From the NCBI GenBank assembly GCA_017513195.1, contig JAFXGM010000009.1, positions 1-64,000 of the forward strand: a DNA stretch of 64,000 bases, read 5' to 3'. How positions within the stretch are numbered: position 1 is the stretch's first letter; the number at the start of each line of letters is the position of its first letter. Made by a program: the position numbers and the translations under genes. This DNA is from Clostridia bacterium (lineage in GTDB: Bacteria; Bacillota; Clostridia; Oscillospirales; Acutalibacteraceae). A model generated the notes under the pieces. That model searched no databases, was not told the DNA's origin, and saw nothing but the letters and a program-made list of their open reading frames with translations. Positions 1,520 to 43,392 of the stretch are shown piece by piece.

Positions 1520-2222
1520 AATTATTTATAATTCCTTTGTTTTTCATAAATCTTGCAATATAAACAATTGGTGTATCTAAAAGACTTGTAAAAACATAAA
1601 TCACATAACTTGATACCATTATCGAAATAAAAGTCTTGATGTCGTATATGCCCCAAAAAGCTATAGAATTAAATATAATGGTATTTACAATTTGCGAAAT
1701 AAGCGTAGAGCCATTATTTCTAAGCCATAAAAAGCGTTTGCTATCCCCTGTTTTATTGCTTGTAAAATCCCACCATTTGTGATAAAGCCATACATCAAAA
1801 CGCTGTGATATAATATAACCTATAAAGCTTGCAGCAAGAAGTCGTGGTGTTGTGCTAAATATAGCCGAAATATGTTCGCTAGCCCAATCGTTTGAAGAAG
1901 GAGTATAAAGCATCCAATACTGAGTAAAAATTAACATAATTACCGAAGTAAATACACCAAGCCACACAGCTTTATTAGCGCTTTTCTTACCCTCATTTTC
2001 ACTTAATATGTCTGTAACAAGATATGTGCTTGCAAACATAACATTACCTAAAGTTTGCTCCATACCAAATCCATCTACAAGTATTAAAACCTCAATATTT
2101 GCAAGTATTGTTGCAATTACGGTCATAATATACATACCGATTTTGCCAAATAATCTATATGCAACAAGCACGGCACCATAAATAACAAATACAGAGCCCA
2201 ATAGCAATAATTCATTCTTCAT
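1518..2222 (-). CDS. Queuosine precursor transporter (VUT/YhhQ family)
   Basis: An integral membrane protein of 234 residues with about six hydrophobic helices, matching the COG1738/VUT family that imports queuosine precursors such as preQ0/preQ1 for tRNA modification. Family-like segments include VMFASTYLVTDILSE early and IVNTIIFNSIAFWG late. An in-frame ATG at 2228 sits only 2 bases from the AAAGGG ribosome site; ATG 2222 is 8 bases away and is preferred. The gene follows leuS, separated by a riboswitch and its terminator, so precursor level likely controls it. Assignment to the family is firm; the exact substrate is inferred. Confidence 0.88.
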   Translation of the reverse strand: MKNELLLLGSVFVIYGAVLVAYRLFGKIGMYIMTVIATILANIEVLILVDGFGMEQTLGNVMFASTYLVTDILSENEGKKSANKAVWLGVFTSVIMLIFTQYWMLYTPSSNDWASEHISAIFSTTPRLLAASFIGYIISQRFDVWLYHKWWDFTSNKTGDSKRFLWLRNNGSTLISQIVNTIIFNSIAFWGIYDIKTFISIMVSSYVIYVFTSLLDTPIVYIARFMKNKGIINN

Positions 2223-2249
2223 AAACATTTCCCTTTCGCCGGGGGCAAA

Positions 2250-2330
2250 AAAGACACACCTATACTATGGGTGTGTCTTTAATTTCAGCCCATAGTTTTG
2301 TTTTGAGACAGGATGGTTTCGAACTGTCTT
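2250..2330 (-). promoter_or_regulatory. Candidate preQ1 riboswitch with terminator/antiterminator
   Basis: Reading leftward: stem AGACAG / CTGTCT (2329-2324 with 2311-2306) closes a 12-base loop starting TTCGAAACC. It is followed by an A-rich tail (CAAAACAAAAC) ending ATGG, which can pair with CCAT of the loop as an H-type pseudoknot. The tail octamer ACTATGGG (2296-2289) is perfectly complementary to CCCATAGT (2271-2264) inside the next hairpin. That hairpin is a terminator: a 10-bp stem (2251-2260 with 2270-2279) followed by TTTTTT. Ligand binding would hide the tail and let the terminator form, switching the gene off. The small stem, A-rich tail and pseudoknot resemble class I preQ1 aptamers, and the downstream gene is a queuosine-precursor transporter. 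The exact class is not certain. Confidence 0.72.
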
Positions 2331-2343
2331 ATTTAATTTCAAA

Positions 2344-4749
2344 TTATTTAACTACAATGTTCACAAGACGTTTTGGAACATAAAGCTCTTTAATAACCGT
2401 CTTGCCTTCAATTTCAGCCGCTACGGCATTATCGGCCTTAGCAAGTGAAATTGCGCTTGCAGCATCAATGTCGGCTGCAACGTTAATTCTTGCCCTAATT
2501 TTACCGTTTACCTGAACAGCAATTTCAACAGCAGAATCAACACACTTTGCTTCATCATATTGGGGCCACTCTGTAGCATTAAGCATGCCGTTAAATCCTG
2601 CTATTTCCCAAAGTTCTTCGGTCATATGAGGAGCAAAAGGATTAAGTAAAGTTATAAATGTCTTAAATTCAGCTTTATTAATGCTACCGGTTGCAGTAAT
2701 TGTGTTAAGCAATGACATTAAAGCAGCAATCGCAGTGTTCATTTTAAGAGTTTCGATATCTTCGGTAACCTTTTTAATGGTCTTATGAACTTCAGACTCA
2801 AGTTCGGTGCGGTAACTATCACCGTCAACCAAAATATCGGCGAGTGAGAATACCTTGTCAAGGAAACGCTTACTTCCCTTGATTGAAGACTGACTCCATG
2901 GAGCTGCTTTTTCAAAGTCACCAATAAACATTTCATAAACACGCATTGTATCTGCGCCGTAGTCGCGGATAATTTCATCCGGATTTACAACGTTGCCGCG
3001 GCTCTTAGACATCTTTTCGCCGTTTTCACCCAAAATCATACCGTGACTTGTACGCTTAGCATAAGGTTCTTTATTTGGTACAACACCGATATCATAAAGG
3101 AACAAATGCCAGAAACGGCTGTAAAGCAAGTGAAGGGTTGTATGCTCCATACCACCGTTATACCAATCAACAGGTCCCCAATATTCTAATGCTTCTTTAC
3201 TTGCCAAAGCATCCTTATTATTAGGATCACAATAACGCAAGAAATACCAAGATGAACCTGCCCATTGTGGCATTGTATCAGTCTCGCGTTTGGCGGGAGC
3301 GCCACAGCAAGGACATGTAGTATTTACCCAATCGGTAATTTTAGCAAGCGGAGATTCGCCGTTATCGGTAGGTTCGTAAGAATCAACATTAGGGAGCGTG
3401 AGTGGCAATTCACTTTCGGGTAGCGGTACATAACCACATTTTTCGCAATAAACCATAGGAATTGGCTCGCCCCAATATCTTTGACGAGAGAATACCCAGT
3501 CGCGAAGCTTGTAGTTAGTTTTACGCTCACCAAGACCTTTATCTTTAAGCCATTCTTGAATTTTAACCTTAGCATCTTCAACAGATAGTCCGTTTAAGAA
3601 TTCAGAGTTTACCATAACGCCGGTATTACAATCGGTAAATGCAGCTTCTTCTACATTACCACCTGCTACAACCTCAATAATTGGAAGACCGAATTTTTTA
3701 GCAAAATCCCAGTCACGAGTATCGTGAGCAGGTACTGCCATAATAGCACCTGTGCCATAAGATATAAGCACGTAGTCAGAAATAAAAATTGGAATTTCAG
3801 TATTATTTACGGGATTTATCGCCTTAATACCTTTAAGCATTACACCTGTTTTGTCTTTCGCAAGCTCGGTACGCTCAAAGTCTGACTTTTTAGCGGCTTC
3901 TTGCTTGTAAGCCAAAACCTCATCATAGTTTTCAATCTTATCTGCCCATTTGTCAATTAAAGGATGCTCCGGTGACAATACAGTGTATGTAGCACCAAAC
4001 AATGTATCGGCACGAGTAGTAAACACCTGGAACTTATCGCCACATGTGGTACCAAAATCAACCAAAGTACCGTAAGAACGACCAATCCAGTTGCGTTGTT
4101 GGGTCTTAACACGCTCAATAAAATCAACGTCATCAAGGCCATTGAGAAGCTTTTCGGCATAGTCGGTAATTTTGAGCATCCACTGACTTTTTTCTTTTTG
4201 AACAACCTCGCTACCGCAACGCTCACAAACGCCGTTTACAACCTCTTCATTAGCAAGAACGCATTTACAAGAGGTACACCAGTTAACCGCCATCTGCTTT
4301 TTGTAGGCAAGACCTTTTTTATAAAGCTGTAAGAAAATCCACTGTGTCCACTTGTAATAGTCTGGGTCTGTGGTGTTAACTTCTCTATCCCAGTCAAACG
4401 AAAAACCAAGAGATTTAAGCTGACGCTTAAAGTTAGCGACATTCATCTTTGTAACTTCAGCCGGATGAATATGATTCTTTATTGCAAAGTTTTCGGTAGG
4501 AAGACCAAACGCATCCCAACCCATTGGATAAAGAACGTTAAAGCCCTGCAAACGCTTTTTACGTGCAACAATATCAATTGCAGTGTAAGAACGTGGATGT
4601 CCAACGTGAAGGCCCTGTCCTGATGGGTAAGGAAACTCTACAAGACCATAAAACTTTGGTAATGTGTAGTCATTTTTAGCGGCAAAGGTTTTATTATCAT
4701 CCCAAATTTGCTGCCATTTCTTCTCAATTTCTGTGTAATTATATTTCAT
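2344..4749 (-). CDS. leuS: Leucyl-tRNA synthetase
   Basis: Charges tRNA-Leu in the cytoplasm. The 801-residue protein has the class I signature HVGH at residues 48-51 and KMSKS near residue 578, with the inserted CP1 editing domain between them ([12 protein letters not shown] is typical) and the anticodon-binding and C-terminal domains after. Four CxxC cysteine pairs lie in two zinc-like knuckles (CTSCKCV...CERCG, and CEKCG...CPCCG). ATG 4749 is chosen: it follows the rsfS stop by one base and has GAGGGTGA upstream. It is the last gene of the long leftward informational run. Confidence 0.97.
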
Positions 4750-4750
4750 A

Positions 4751-5116
4751 TCAGTCACCCTCTGTTTCGTCAAGAATTGTTGATAAATCTATTTCTTGTG
4801 CATCTTTCCACATGCTGTCGAGATTATAAAATTCACGCTCATTTGGGGTAAATACATGAACAATAACCGACGTATAGTCAAGTGCAATCCAACCGGTTGT
4901 TTTACCCTCAATGTGATGTGGCTCGACAGCTTGTTCCTTTAACTTTTCTTCGACCTCATCAGCAAGAGCACGTACATGTGTTGAAGACGTTGCGGTTGCA
5001 ATTACGAAATAATCGGCAAGTGTGGTAAGATCATCAATTTTTAATACTTTAAGCTGCCTAGCTTTTTTATTATTTAAGGCGTTGGCAGCAATTTTAAAAA
5101 TATTTTGCGAATCCAT
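4751..5116 (-). CDS. rsfS: Ribosomal silencing factor RsfS
   Basis: 121 residues, the usual size of RsfS/Iojap proteins, which bind L14 on the large subunit and block subunit joining when nutrients run low. Family features seen: the [20 protein letters not shown] segment and the [20 protein letters not shown] segment. The start ATG overlaps the yqeK stop by one base (TAATG), and leuS starts one base after its stop, so the three are translationally linked. Confidence 0.95.
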
Positions 5117-5691
5117 TATTTACTTCCTTTCAAAGCATTTTCATTATAAGCATTAACAGTATCAAGGTGAAGAGGTTTTCCACGTGATACCAGATCATTT
5201 ATTGTATATGAAAGAGCATAGTCTAAAGCTGCTTCCAGTGATATTTCAACCTTTTCGCGCATTACATCAATATCGTCGTAATCTCGGTCAAGTGATGTAA
5301 AATCGGCAAGATATAATAGCTTTTCAAGTTGAGTCATACCGGCACGAGCTGTTGTGTGATAGCGCACAGCCGTAATTATCTCTTTATCATTAATTTTTAA
5401 AACATTCTCAATATACGCAGCACCCGACATTGCATGCCATAACTTTTCAGCATTTTTTTCAATATCGTTTAGCATTATACCAAATCGTTTAAAAATATTC
5501 AAGTGTTCATCTGGCGGTGCGTTTTTTGTTATATCGTGCAAAAGGCCTGCAAGATATGCTTTTTCTTTATCGCCACCATATTTATTAGCAAGTCTGACAG
5601 CCTCTTCTGCAACACACAACGAATGATGATAGCGCTTTGGCGTCAATCTTGATTTTAAAATGTCTTTATATTTATCGTATTGTTCAAACAT
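5116..5691 (-). CDS. yqeK: HD-domain Ap4A hydrolase YqeK
   Basis: 191-residue HD-superfamily phosphohydrolase. The metal-binding residues are visible as H-H in RYHHSLCVAEEA, the paired HD in AGLLHDITKN, and H in KLWHAMSGAAY and VRYHTTARAGM. YqeK proteins split diadenosine tetraphosphate symmetrically into ADP (family knowledge). It overlaps nadD by 8 bases and abuts rsfS, the standard nadD-yqeK-rsfS order of Firmicutes. Confidence 0.94.
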   Translation of the reverse strand: MFEQYDKYKDILKSRLTPKRYHHSLCVAEEAVRLANKYGGDKEKAYLAGLLHDITKNAPPDEHLNIFKRFGIMLNDIEKNAEKLWHAMSGAAYIENVLKINDKEIITAVRYHTTARAGMTQLEKLLYLADFTSLDRDYDDIDVMREKVEISLEAALDYALSYTINDLVSRGKPLHLDTVNAYNENALKGSK

Positions 5692-6265
5692 TATAAATAC
5701 CTTTTTCGATTATATAGTCATAAACCTTTTTAGGTAATAAAGATTTATCTATTCTCTTGCGAAGCTTAGTTGAAGATATATTTGTAATTTTATTTTCAAT
5801 TACGATTATATCTGCTCCACAATGTTTAATACGTTTAAATGCAGAATCGAAATCATCGAGTCCTTCTCGTTTAAAAGCAATAAAAGACGTAAGTGTGATT
5901 AATTTTTTCCAATTATACCAAGTATCAAGCGTAGATAACATATCTCCACCAATTGCCACAAAAAAATTATCTTGAGGATGCTTTTTCTTTAAAAGCTTTA
6001 TAGTATCAACAGTATAGCTTTTTCCCTCTCGTTCAAATTCAATAAGACAAAGCTCTGCTTTGCTAAAATCATCACATACAAGCGCACACATATTTTGACG
6101 ATGAATATCATCAACTACATTATCAAAATCCTTGTGTGGTGGAATTTTGTCAGGCATAACTAAAACCTTGTCAATGTGTTCAAGATTACAAAGACTTGAT
6201 AGCATTTCATAATGACCTATATGAAACGGATTAAAGGTGCCACCAAAAATCGCAATATTTGCCAT
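5684..6265 (-). CDS. nadD: Nicotinate-nucleotide adenylyltransferase
   Basis: Joins nicotinate mononucleotide and ATP to give deamido-NAD in NAD synthesis. 193 residues. The nucleotidyltransferase motifs are clear: GGTFNPFHIGH at residues 8-18 (the HxGH site) and SSTKLRKRI (the ISSTxxR site) near residue 165. It follows yhbY directly, with the start right after that gene's stop, and overlaps yqeK. Confidence 0.96.
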   Translation of the reverse strand: MANIAIFGGTFNPFHIGHYEMLSSLCNLEHIDKVLVMPDKIPPHKDFDNVVDDIHRQNMCALVCDDFSKAELCLIEFEREGKSYTVDTIKLLKKKHPQDNFFVAIGGDMLSTLDTWYNWKKLITLTSFIAFKREGLDDFDSAFKRIKHCGADIIVIENKITNISSTKLRKRIDKSLLPKKVYDYIIEKGIYNV

Positions 6266-6559
6266 TTATTTTACCAGTTTTATTGTTTTGTTATTTTTGC
6301 TCTCACGGTAAAGAATAAAGCGATATCCTATCACCTGTACAACGTCGGCACCTACGCGTTCAGCGATAGTATCAGCCGCTATGCGAGAAGTATCAGGACA
6401 GGTTTCAAGCACACGCATTTTAATTAGCTCGCGTGCTTCAAGCGCTTCGTCAACCTGTTTGATAAGCTGGTCGTTTATACCGCCTTTACCTACCTGAAAT
6501 ATTGCTTCGTATGTATTTGCCATACCACGAAGCTGTGCTCTTTGTCTGCTATTTAACAT
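6266..6559 (-). CDS. yhbY: YhbY/CRS1 RNA-binding protein
   Basis: 97-residue protein of the CRM-domain family, which binds pre-ribosomal RNA. Signature: QRAQLRGMANTYEAIFQVGK at the start, then KVGKG-like GKGGINDQLI, and GYRFILYR near the end. The start overlaps the rdgB stop by one base and nadD follows immediately, placing it between nucleotide-pool and NAD genes as in many clostridia. Confidence 0.93.
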   Translation of the reverse strand: MLNSRQRAQLRGMANTYEAIFQVGKGGINDQLIKQVDEALEARELIKMRVLETCPDTSRIAADTIAERVGADVVQVIGYRFILYRESKNNKTIKLVK

Positions 6560-7164
6560 TATTTTTCCTCATTTATATCTATATATTTTTTTAATTCTTC
6601 TTTAAAAAGTGAAAGTGCTTTTCCTCGATGACTAATGCTATCTTTTTGTTGTGGTGTAAGCAGACCCATTGGACCCAATTCGCTTATGAAATATGGGTCA
6701 TAACCAAATCCACCGTCGCCTATAGGCTCAAAATTAATCTTTCCTTCGCATTCACCACGGACAGTAAAATACCTACCATCAGGAAAAACACATGCAATAG
6801 CCGCAACATATCGTGCGGTGCGTTTTTCTAAAGGCACACCTTTGAGTTCGCGTAATAACTTTTGATTATTTGACTCATCATCACCGTGCTCGCCTGAATA
6901 ACGCGCAGAATATATACCGGGTGCGCCGTCTAAATAATCAACGCAAATACCGGAATCATCGGCTACCGATATTAGCCCCGTATTATTAAGACCATCTTTT
7001 GCTTTAATAATGGCATTTTCTTCAAATGTAGTACCATTCTCAATTGGTTCGGGAAAGTTTTTATTAAAATCTTTTTGACTTAGCACATCAAAACCCATTG
7101 GAATTAAAATACGTTCTAATTCCTTAAGCTTTTTCTGATTTTTTGTTGCAATAAATATTTTCAT
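6559..7164 (-). CDS. rdgB: XTP/dITP diphosphatase (RdgB/HAM1)
   Basis: Removes non-canonical purine triphosphates (XTP, ITP, dITP) from the pool. 201 residues from ATG 7164. Motifs: IFIATKNQKKLKEL (SxNxxK-type start), SVADDSGICVDYL with the catalytic Asp pair, PGIYSARYSG, and the closing SHRGKAL. A GTG nine bases upstream lies inside the GGTGA ribosome site and is unlikely to be the start. ftsY ends two bases upstream. Confidence 0.96.
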   Translation of the reverse strand: MKIFIATKNQKKLKELERILIPMGFDVLSQKDFNKNFPEPIENGTTFEENAIIKAKDGLNNTGLISVADDSGICVDYLDGAPGIYSARYSGEHGDDESNNQKLLRELKGVPLEKRTARYVAAIACVFPDGRYFTVRGECEGKINFEPIGDGGFGYDPYFISELGPMGLLTPQQKDSISHRGKALSLFKEELKKYIDINEEK

Positions 7165-33188: not shown

Positions 33189-33224
33189 GAAAACGACAAG
33201 TTTCGACAGAAACTTGTCGTTTTC
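33189..33224 (+). terminator. Terminator after tRNA-Gln
   Basis: GAAAACGACAAGTTTC and GAAACTTGTCGTTTTC form a perfect 16-bp stem around GACA. The hairpin-chain element starts at its very end. Confidence 0.9.
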
Positions 33225-33395
33225 AGTTATATTCGCCTTACGTCGCGTTATATGCACCTTCGGTGCGTGATATTTGCTTCGCAAGTGATATGCCTGCAGG
33301 CGTTAGGGGCGAATATAATATCACTGAAACCGTAGGTTTCAATATCACATTTTGCGTAGCAAAATATATCACTCCGTCGAAGACGGAATATCACT
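33225..33395 (+). repeat. Hairpin-chain element, copy 1
   Basis: A chain of short palindromes joined by a constant linker. Left half: arm TTATATTCGCC (33227-33237), hairpins GCACC-TTC-GGTGC, TTGC-TTC-GCAA and GCCTGCAGGC joined by GTGATAT, then arm GGCGAATATAA (33308-33318). Right half: hairpins GAAACC-GTA-GGTTTC, ATTTTGC-GTA-GCAAAAT and TCCGTC-GAA-GACGGA joined by the reverse linker ATATCAC. The linkers of the two halves are mutually complementary, so the whole could also fold as one long branched structure. No coding sequence fits. This and the terminators fill 33189-33503. Confidence 0.85.
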
Positions 33396-33470
33396 AAAAA
33401 CTAACGGTTAGGTGAGAGTTAAAATTCATACGCCAAAACTACTATAAATATATTTTTTGGCATATATCAA

Positions 33471-36761: not shown

Positions 36762-36775
36762 AAAATTACAACACA

Positions 36776-36935
36776 GATAGCACTCCACACAAAAATGTGA
36801 CAGTATATTACATATTTTGCAATATACCAACAATACCACGGCGGATACCATAATATCATTTCGGCGACTTCCCCTTTTGCGTTGCGGTTTATCCGAACCG
36901 TTTGCAACGTTACTAATGGTTGCCGCGCCTCTATC
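36776..36935 (-). promoter_or_regulatory. Lysine riboswitch (L-box)
   Basis: Read leftward, the aptamer starts GATAGAGGCGCGG and closes with GTGGAGTGCTATC, the P1 ends. In between lie the conserved L-box pieces CATTAGTAA, AAAGGGGAAGTCGCCGAAA and CTGTCACATTTTTGTG. Five arms radiate from the core as in the family. Lysine binding should favour the following terminator and switch the transporter off. Confidence 0.95.
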
Positions 36936-36953
36936 AATTATTAAGTTATAGAC

Positions 36954-42131: not shown

Positions 42132-43049
42132 TTAAAAAATACTAAGCTCTAAATTCTTGCTTAATAGTTCTAACGCCTTAATTCCTGCAATACTATTTCC
42201 TTTTTTATCCAAGGCCGGAGAAAAAATACCAATGCCCATTCTATTTGGTACAACGGCCATAATACCGCCGCCTACACCGCTTTTTGCAGGTACGCCGACA
42301 TTAAGAGCAAATTCACCCGAACCATCATACATACCGCAGGTCATAAGTACGGCATTGATATACTGTGAATACTTTTTATCAAACAAGCGATTATTTGTTT
42401 TTGGCTCAATTCCGCCATTTGCAAAGACAAGTGCAATTTGTGCAAGGTCCATAGCGGTTACCTTTATGGAACAAGCCTTGAAGTAACAATCTAGTATCTC
42501 TTCAATATTATCATTTACAAGTCCATAAGCCTTCAACATATAAGCAAGAGCGCGGTTTTTGTTACCCGTAGCTTTTTCTGATAGATACACCTGTTCATCA
42601 ACCTGTAAATTAGGATTGCACGAAACCCTTCTCGCAAGTTCTAGTAAACGCTGAAACTTTTCGTCGTAAGTTTCACCCTTTATCAAAGTACATAGAGCAA
42701 TCGCACCCGCGTTAACCATCGGGTTAATATGTTCCGCATTTAATGCTTGGTCACTGTAATTAAAAGTATCAAAAGGTTTTCCGGTTGCTTCGACACCCAC
42801 AAGACAACGAACACGGTCCATACCATTATCCATCAAAGCAATCAAAAGTATAAGTGGCTTTACAATACTTTGCATTGTAAAGTATTGATCGGCATCTCCT
42901 GAAAAAAATTGTTTGCCTTCTTTAGTTATAACGCAAACACCAAGCGCATCTTTATTGGCCTTCGCAAGTTCAGGTATATAACTGGCAACTACACCGTCAT
43001 TAATATATCTTGCACTTTCTGACAGAATATTGTCAAGAATCAATTTCAT
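42132..43049 (-). CDS. glsA: Glutaminase
   Basis: Splits glutamine to glutamate and ammonia. 305 residues, serine-dependent beta-lactamase-like fold: S61-x-x-K64 in MQSIVKPL, PMVNAGAIAL near residue 125, YLSEKATGNKNRALAY near residue 170 and KSGVGGGIMAVVPNRMGI near residue 260. ATG 43049 is 6 bases from GGTGGGTG. Single-gene unit with its own promoter. Confidence 0.95.
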   Translation of the reverse strand: MKLILDNILSESARYINDGVVASYIPELAKANKDALGVCVITKEGKQFFSGDADQYFTMQSIVKPLILLIALMDNGMDRVRCLVGVEATGKPFDTFNYSDQALNAEHINPMVNAGAIALCTLIKGETYDEKFQRLLELARRVSCNPNLQVDEQVYLSEKATGNKNRALAYMLKAYGLVNDNIEEILDCYFKACSIKVTAMDLAQIALVFANGGIEPKTNNRLFDKKYSQYINAVLMTCGMYDGSGEFALNVGVPAKSGVGGGIMAVVPNRMGIGIFSPALDKKGNSIAGIKALELLSKNLELSIF

Positions 43050-43070
43050 ATACTCACCCACCTTGGGTGT

Positions 43071-43099
43071 ATTATAGCATAAAAGCGGCGGAGGCGCAA
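43071..43099 (-). promoter_or_regulatory. Promoter of glsA
   Basis: Leftward TTGCGC (43099-43094), 17-bp spacer ending TGC, TATAAT (43076-43071): an extended -10 promoter. Its -35 lies a few bases from the end of hairpin-chain copy 2. Confidence 0.75.
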
Positions 43100-43105
43100 G
43101 AGGTT

Positions 43106-43281
43106 AGTGATATTCTGTGCTACGCACAGAGTGATATTTTCACTTTCGTGAAAGTTATATTGAAACCTGCGGTTTCAGTGATATTATATTCGCCTTTAAA
43201 ACTCGCAAAGCGAATATCACTTGGACTTTAGTCCAAATATCACTGCGAAGCAATATCACTCGCCGAAGGCGAATATAACTG
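43106..43281 (-). repeat. Hairpin-chain element, copy 2
   Basis: Same design as the copy at 33225-33395, read leftward. TCAG, then arm TTATATTCGCC (43278-43268), hairpins TCGCC-TTC-GGCGA, TGC-TTC-GCA, TTGGAC-TAAA-GTCCAA and TCGC-TTT-GCGA joined by GTGATAT. Then arm GGCGAATATAA (43194-43184), then hairpins GAAACC-GCA-GGTTTC, TTTCAC-GAAA-GTGAAA and CTGTGC-GTA-GCACAG joined by ATATCAC or ATATAAC. Only the arms, linkers and the GAAACC hairpin match copy 1; other hairpins differ in sequence while keeping 3-4 base loops. Confidence 0.85.
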
Positions 43282-43315
43282 AAAAAACTCCTTGAGAAAT
43301 CTCAAGGAGTTTTTT
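43282..43315 (-). terminator. Terminator of tRNA-Thr
   Basis: AAAAAACTCCTTGAG (43282-43296) pairs perfectly with CTCAAGGAGTTTTTT (43301-43315). Confidence 0.92.
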
Positions 43316-43316
43316 C

Positions 43317-43392
43317 TGGAGCTGCTAACCAGATTCGAACTGGTGACCTCGTCCTTACCAAGGACGTGCTCTACCACCTGAGCCATAGCAGC
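43317..43392 (-). tRNA. tRNA-Thr (GGU)
   Basis: Acceptor GCTGCTA pairs with TAGCAGC; D arm with GGCTCAGGTGGTAGAGC; anticodon loop TTGGTAA between CGTCC and GGACG gives GGT; T loop TTCGAAT; encoded CCA after discriminator T. Confidence 0.96.

Follow-up and report, generated by a model that had tools for sequence, protein, structure and literature searches.

Inverted hairpin arrays containing the Gut-1 motif in Clostridia: a dispersed, apparently mobile family associated with S23p genes

The window, meaning the whole stretch of 64,000 nucleotides that was analysed (positions 1 to 64,000 of contig JAFXGM010000009.1, assembly GCA_017513195.1, from a Clostridia bacterium of the Acutalibacteraceae), carries two chains of short hairpins, called here copies A and B (Table 1). 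Both are intergenic, following the terminator-like hairpins of tRNA-Gln (A) and tRNA-Thr (B), and neither is located in an rRNA gene. On the minus strand, from 43281 to 43106, copy B has the layout CAGTTATATT-H1-AGTGATATT-H2-AGTGATATT-H3-AGTGATATT-H4-AGTTTTAAA-GGCGAATATAA-TATCACT-H5-AATATAACT-H6-ATATCACT-H7-AATATCACT. Its seven hairpins are separated by near-constant linkers: H1-H4 come after linkers of the AGTTATATT/AGTGATATT type, and the central arm is followed by H5-H7 with AATATCACT-type linkers.

Table 1. Hairpin chains of the window and the features around them
Feature	Position in window	Strand	Score or remark
Copy B, full chain of the GTGATAT/ATATCAC class, with two inverted halves (four hairpins, then three) and eight linkers of heptamer type	43106..43281	-	
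Copy B, left half, Rfam Gut-1 (RF01706)	43209..43281	-	52.2 bits
Copy B, right half, same Gut-1 model on the opposite strand	43105..43189	+	38.6 bits, under cut-off
Copy B, 5' arm TTATATTCGCC, overlapping stem H1	43268..43278	-	sequence
Copy B, central arm GGCGAATATAA, complement of the 5' arm	43184..43194	-	sequence
Copy B, H0, hairpin of tRNA-Thr resembling an intrinsic terminator and directly adjoining the chain	43282..43315	-	
tRNA-Thr (ggt), 5' of copy B	43317..43392	-	
Copy B, promoter-like tail, TTGCGC-N17-TATAAT, directed into the glutaminase gene	43061..43105	-	
Glutaminase gene (PF04960), host gene, 3' of copy B	42132..43061	-	
Copy A, full chain, same class as copy B; H1 imperfect	33224..33395	+	
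Copy A, left half, Rfam Gut-1	33224..33296	+	52.7 bits
Copy A, H0, terminator-like hairpin	33190..33223	+	same 34-nt hairpin 5' of copy L001 in the same genome
Copy A, tail, end approximate	33396..33468	+	partly common to copy L001; missing from the orthologous G010 site
Lysine riboswitch	36770..36941	-	105 bits

The 11-bp arm pair TTATATTCGCC/GGCGAATATAA is present in both copies, and GAAACC/GGTTTC forms the H5 stem of both. The initial annotation, which had described a shared start, 11-bp arms, linkers and this one identical stem, therefore agrees with the sequence. It had also stated that the other stems were new yet each perfectly paired; this holds for copy B, where all seven stems pair (H2, GCTTCGC, by 2 bp only), but not for copy A, in which H1 (CGCC..GTCG) is incompletely paired. 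The chains belong to a family that is real, beyond chance and more than an ordinary repeat. The window has 21 occurrences of the word GTGATATT where 3.6 would be expected, an approximately 6-fold excess (maximum of 100 shuffles, 10), and single-strand folding of copy B is far more stable than that of shuffled sequences (z = -7.3 with DNA and -6.9 with RNA parameters), as is that of copy A (z = -5.3, DNA). No convincing promoter was seen by eye inside the chain. The promoter-like tail string of copy B was found again beside other chains of the same genome, and with at most one mismatch the tail string CGCTTTTATGCTATAATACA has four occurrences genome-wide, of which three adjoin chains.

The left halves of both copies narrowly pass the gathering score (50 bits) of RF01706 in cmscan. 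This Rfam family, Gut-1, is a candidate gut ncRNA which, in the accessible part of the 2010 paper, comes from human-gut environmental sequence only and is rated 'Y' as RNA. The right half is also matched by this model, below the cut-off and on the other strand, so that the element amounts to a large inverted repeat made of hairpin arrays; the model covers 77 nt, whereas the element here is about 175 nt long with its inverted second half. Sixteen Gut-1 matches, amounting to about a dozen elements, are present in the window's genome, and 98 of 149 genomes, the window's own included, have a match. A phylum-wide draw gave Gut-1 in 3 of 299 genomes, one being the window's own and one from its order. 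The two loci reported by the initial annotation are thus both real, but they are part of a dispersed, apparently mobile family across an order. With the pattern scan, the named matches among those listed were largely gut Clostridia MAGs, mixed with chance matches. Genomes named Akkermansia or Akkermansiaceae, reached via the loci L078, L081 and L176, have 6, 24 and 10 Gut-1 matches, and the family may reach beyond the order if these bins are named correctly. The Akkermansia-named L078 also carries chains with CGAGATT, GTGAAATT and ATATAACC linkers within 5 kb (about 1977-7054). Most chains analysed were fetched through the RF01706 model; loci from the pattern scan were admitted only with arm, chain or protein support, because generic chain detection also returned chance chains in viral contigs.

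Parsing of 157 loci from 54 genomes gave four linker classes, GTGAAAT/ATTTCAC, GTGATAT/ATATCAC, ATGAAAT/ATTTCAT and ATGATAT/ATATCAT. With regard to the fifth position (A or T), 154 of the 157 elements keep to one class throughout, left and right together (the exceptions are L596, L603 and L604), and the first linker letter is more variable. The linkers are not simply fixed: the class differs between elements, one genome often having several, and the word beside S23p genes tracks the lineage of that protein, discussed below. The arms also change on both sides jointly, for example to TTTTATTCGCC/GGCGAATAAAA, and arms complementary over 7 bp or more are found in 140 of 157 elements, a count made without a shuffle control. 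No pattern stood out in the one-to-one partnering of individual left and right linkers, though co-change at the level of the class is near complete. Other heptamers occur at related places: L440 (genome G056) has chains with ATGATGT/GCATCAT and GTATATCAT-type linkers on both sides of a glutaminase gene orthologous to that of the window, and L444 and L445 (genomes G032 and G056) have runs of AAAGTGAAAAGTGAAGAGTGAAAAG-type heptamers after gpsA, where the window's genome has a chain.

Retention of pairing was assessed in the right half, which is outside the view of the Gut-1 model, and its spacers were cut by linker words alone, with no pairing filter. Of 287 distinct right-half spacers (129 loci), 197 had an uninterrupted stem of 4 bp or more flush with the linkers, compared with a mean of 6.1 and a maximum of 13 in shuffles, while spacers with stems of at least 5 bp showed 86 distinct six-base starts, indicating that the stems vary freely. 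Retention of pairing while the stem sequence changes is therefore strongly supported, in line with the earlier suggestion of selection for structure; the alternative suggested with it, a mechanism that makes new palindromes between fixed linkers, is conceivable. Stems varying without pairing across further copies, which had been named as evidence against that suggestion, did not appear, yet about a third of right-half spacers are without an unbroken flush stem; many of the 40 failing spacers that were printed have a single mismatch.

The loops are specific to one strand. A census was made of 422 distinct hairpins with stems of at least 4 bp, read on the ATTTCAC/ATATCAC strand, and the loop-closing pair was C-G in 369 of them. 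Among the triloops (n = 204), 129 were GNA, 41 ANA and one TNC; the tetraloops (n = 183) comprised 122 GNNA (70 GNRA and 52 GNYA), one T..C and no UNCG. Loops of the form C(GNA)G or C(GNNA)G are hence found on this strand and their complements almost never. The control, 88 terminator-like hairpins from the window and the fetched loci, gave GNA in none of 15 triloops and, out of 47 tetraloops, nine G..A, eight T..C and five TNCG. The same split was seen in 98 unambiguous elements oriented by their arms only, the 104 of 202 with ambiguous orientation being left out. Mismatches within stems were also skewed, with G.T at 26 vs A.C at 11 and A.G at 14 vs C.T at 3; pooled, G.T and A.G outnumber A.C and C.T by 40 to 14 (p = 5e-4), the wobble excess alone (26 to 11) being modest.

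Nearest-neighbour energies on the ATTTCAC strand were better for 189 hairpins and worse for 47 with the RNA model, and better for 201 and worse for 29 with the DNA model. Since both models favour this strand, strand choice alone does not separate DNA from RNA. The loop and mismatch data place the best folding of the two halves on opposite strands and, because the halves are inverted, no single transcript holds both of them in the favoured form, which speaks against one structured transcript. Mainly for this reason, we favour DNA hairpins over an RNA. The GNYA and GNRA counts are close (52 vs 70), a smaller skew than expected of RNA tetraloops; on the side of an RNA, GNRA makes up 70 of the 122 GNNA loops. 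Loops of the d(cGNNAg) type are stable in DNA. According to the accessible text of PMC6479982, which cites Yoshizawa 1997, GNA loops form very stable DNA minihairpins.

The chains have a preferred genomic setting. A tRNA lies on the same strand within 260 nt upstream of 55 of 157 elements, and an opposite-strand tRNA alone was found for none. In a set of 198 that includes elements of ambiguous orientation, a hairpin is flush with the 5' end of 112 (3 when shuffled) and a T-run is present at the 5' end of 116 (9 when shuffled).

Comparison of orthologous sites suggests that chains move or are replaced. At the aspartokinase/tRNA-His/tRNA-Gln site the window's genome (G000) has terminator, chain and tail, whereas G010, with synteny that by eye extends into the downstream MgtC-family region, has a different terminator and no chain. 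G010 was considered as a clean empty site and this was rejected, its own different terminator pointing to replacement rather than an insertion scar; no target-site duplication was found. The gpsA/tRNA-Thr site of G008 has a terminator identical to H0 of copy B, followed by a chain whose linker class and stems are not those of copy B; 3' of a similar promoter-like tail lies another gene. The same site in G032, G056 and G034 is without the chain. Units recur at approximately 260-330 bp with unrelated flanks: three units of G127, from a set that includes elements of ambiguous orientation, are 95-99% identical and carry terminal palindromes, with no target duplication established, and genomes from different families share a 261-bp unit at 97% identity. 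These elements are, as MITEs are, short, multicopy, ORF-less and near-identical units with unrelated flanks.

As several chains precede a small ORF, the protein family PF05635 (23S_rRNA_IVP, S23p) was sought, and it was found in 57 of 70 genus genomes, 58 of 117 order genomes and none of 14 control genomes. The one S23p gene found in the window's genome, at G000:C47:108419-108721, comes immediately after chain L007, which has the same word class as the other chains of that genome; the protein corresponds to TIGR02436, with 2rld as its nearest solved structure. No PF05635 match was found beside copies A and B of the window, which are therefore called gene-less members. A gene-carrying unit consists of H0, chain, promoter, ribosome-binding site and S23p, and in five such copies, aligned by eye, similarity ends about 10 nt after the S23p stop codon. 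The promoter-like tail of copy B may be the counterpart of the S23p promoter, judging by its position and similarity.

The surroundings of S23p genes, out to 320 nt, were searched blindly for heptamers, either in plain tandem or with hairpins between them, and arrays were detected at 58 of 71 genus S23p loci (37 with chains) and at 11 of 20 further ones (8 with chains), giving 69 of 91; these 91 are part of roughly 150 S23p rows listed, and three loci (L715, L721 and L726) were chosen with a nearby Gut-1 match already known. Arrays were present at 21 of 29 loci of the order-wide set, 13 with chains; no array was seen at the other 22 of the 91 genus loci and 8 of the 29 order loci. A hairpin array adjoins the gene at 58 S23p loci in all, 45 of the 91 in the genus and 13 of the 29 in the order-wide set, with many different words. 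Control flanks of gpsA and aspartokinase gave arrays at only 2 of 53 loci (5 short ones out of 58 were left out), and one of the two is most likely the known chain of L447. The chain is upstream of the S23p gene at 35 loci and downstream at 4 (71-locus set). Loci found by the DNA pattern only contained 11 S23p genes, of which 6 immediately followed three or more heptamers of this kind, and the S23p gene of L078 is flanked on both sides by ATATAACC/GGTTATAT chains. The two features also co-occur by genome. Within the genus, S23p is present in 50 of 56 genomes with Gut-1 vs 7 of 14 without (p = 0.003); for the order, Gut-1 is present in 28 of 34 genomes with S23p vs 3 of 15 without (p = 6e-5; 49 genomes whose state was readable from both searches).

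Chains were also seen on two IMG/VR contigs classed as viral, together with an S23p gene in L283 and, by eye, an apparent S23p fragment in L252, and phages or prophages may therefore carry the element. In a separate S23p clade (L655, L657, L659, L671 and others) the gene is bracketed by plain tandem heptamers such as AATTCGG, TAATGCG and AATGCGG, which are inverted between its two sides and have no hairpins among them. At L737, a TTTTCAC run resembling those of L444 and L445 adjoins an S23p gene.

The heptamer word follows the lineage of the S23p protein. A tree was made of 89 S23p proteins, short and with many unresolved forks, after leaving L654 (long branch) and L738 (broken frame) out of 91, and the words beside the genes were normalised by hand to one strand. 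With 14 words over 44 rows, the word required 16 changes on this tree, compared with a mean of 33.1 and a minimum of 29 in 300 shuffles; hairpin-type vs tandem-type required 3 changes over 68 rows (at least 14 in shuffles). Genome identity was unstructured, with 37 changes vs 37.1 when shuffled. As word and protein lie side by side, their co-segregation can reflect co-inheritance alone and is not proof of recognition. When the class of the chains was compared by hand with that of the resident S23p in 13 genomes, 11 of 20 genome-class pairs matched, 7 failed and 2 were partial.

Taken with the architecture, the pairing, the strand-specific loops, the dispersal, the occupied and the empty orthologous site and the linkage and co-occurrence with S23p, we consider it probable that the window copies are gene-less, non-autonomous members of an S23p-associated family of mobile hairpin arrays, working as DNA hairpins read by S23p. 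The full unit would comprise a target-side hairpin H0, often an intrinsic terminator, and an inverted two-half hairpin array with a 7-nt word; in gene-carrying copies the array would be followed immediately by a promoter and a gene (PF05635) for an S23p/IVP four-helix-bundle protein. When the DNA is single-stranded or extruded, C(GNA)G and C(GNNA)G hairpins would most likely form on the ATTTCAC/ATATCAC strand, where the cognate S23p would recognise the word and the hairpins and promote copying of the unit to sites adjoining other hairpins, terminators among them. Copies without the gene, those of the window included, would be moved in trans. Binding of the hairpins by S23p, their action as DNA and the copying step are the presumptive parts of this scheme, and we know of no nuclease or transposase activity of S23p.

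It could be argued that Gut-1 is a structured non-coding RNA, transcribed through the chain and under selection at the RNA level, and that ordinary duplication dispersed its copies. Both copies pass the RF01706 gathering score, the RNA folding z of copy B is -6.9, G.T exceeds A.C on the array strand, which RNA energies favour as well, and the 'Y' rating in the accessible part of the 2010 paper agrees with these. However, the halves have reverse-complementary loop types and mismatch biases, so that each transcript would contain one half in its poor form; in the window, the chain begins immediately at a terminator-like hairpin, so that a promoter would not fit between the two; UNCG is absent from 183 tetraloops; and neither the mobility nor the S23p linkage is explained. 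We regard an RNA of this kind as unlikely, although it merits consideration. The association with same-strand tRNAs (55 of 157, opposite-strand alone 0), flush upstream hairpins (112 of 198 vs 3) and T-runs (116 vs 9) could instead reflect a host-selected, BIME-like boundary element at the ends of transcription units, limiting read-through, exonucleases or the spread of supercoils between a terminator and the next promoter. That the chains are often missing from orthologous sites, that the class at one site differs between close species and that the S23p linkage is left unexplained make this improbable as the explanation of the family, but a boundary function could be a secondary role of the chains.

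Inverted hairpin units in intergenic DNA, and a RAYT-like Y1 gene in the window's genome, would also be compatible with REPIN-like repeats moved by a RAYT/Y1 (HUH) transposase. This we consider very improbable, because Y1 is unrelated to the presence of Gut-1 (38 of 56 genomes with Gut-1 vs 11 of 14 without, p = 0.53), chains were found at none of 20 Y1-transposase loci searched in whole, and the Y1 gene of this genome has its own GTAG-type palindromes in its coding sequence. That gene, with a weak PF01797 match, lies directly after a dnaC-like gene (G000:C12:13528-13920, L621); GTAGGGCAGGGGCTTGCTCCTGCC-type palindromes are found, inverted, inside its coding sequence, and a Gut-1 copy in L060 has the same palindrome next to it. 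The possibility of a REP/RAYT pair, raised by a linker match 56 nt from the Y1 gene, was rejected, as the match lies in the dnaC-like coding sequence (named by eye) and is without hairpins.

The proposed mobile DNA hairpin arrays associated with S23p share features with several known systems. Like REPINs and BIMEs, they are dispersed, inverted, hairpin-forming intergenic repeats. REP sequences have a conserved palindrome with a short 5' guide, the reverse of the elements described here, which have a free stem and a conserved linker and no link to Y1. Avd, on which diversity-generating retroelements depend, is a four-helix-bundle relative of S23p; sequence searches of Pfam and the PDB gave no Avd match to this S23p protein, the PDB returning 2rld and 2gsc only. 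These retroelements use a single hairpin and are driven by a reverse transcriptase, whereas the arrays here are multi-hairpin. Their retrohoming, in the accessible text of PMC3240598, requires a DNA hairpin in which the stem is free and the 4-nt loop, 5'GRNA, is critical.

Intervening sequences (IVSs) of 23S rRNA with an S23p ORF encode the same protein family (PF05635/TIGR02436). The Coxiella IVS, in the accessible text of PMC4990558, is located within an rRNA helix, with heptamers in tandem immediately 5' of the S23p start; its function and origin are described there as unclear, mobility having once been proposed, and S23p proteins as without known function. Heptamer repeats beside S23p, a feature of this one described IVS as far as the accessible text goes, are also found here (69 of 91 genus and 21 of 29 order loci), but the present elements are intergenic rather than in rRNA, they have hairpins between the heptamers and many copies are gene-less. 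From Gut-1 as listed in Rfam they differ in having several linker classes, in looking mobile and in being linked to S23p.

The known parts of the element are therefore Gut-1, its left half, and S23p as a family. The accessible text of the open-licence PMC literature gave no report of this link between S23p and hairpin arrays, nor was the phrase 'Gut-1 RNA' found in that literature; as far as these searches reach, the full inverted architecture, the strand-specific loops, the mobility and the S23p link are new. In this light, a family that Rfam lists as 'RNA' would become one half of a larger element, probably DNA, that preserves pairing and the spacing word but leaves stem sequence free. The 58 S23p loci with hairpin arrays, with their many words, offer a direct substrate for testing S23p. 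More tentatively, and as a possibility that we place somewhat short of probable, the arrays may represent an undescribed class of mobile DNA in which heptamers serve as an 'address', each S23p reading its own heptamer and loops and spreading the array, with or without the gene, to terminators and rRNA helices. If true, this reading of heptamer addresses would explain Gut-1, the IVSs of rRNA and the job of S23p together.
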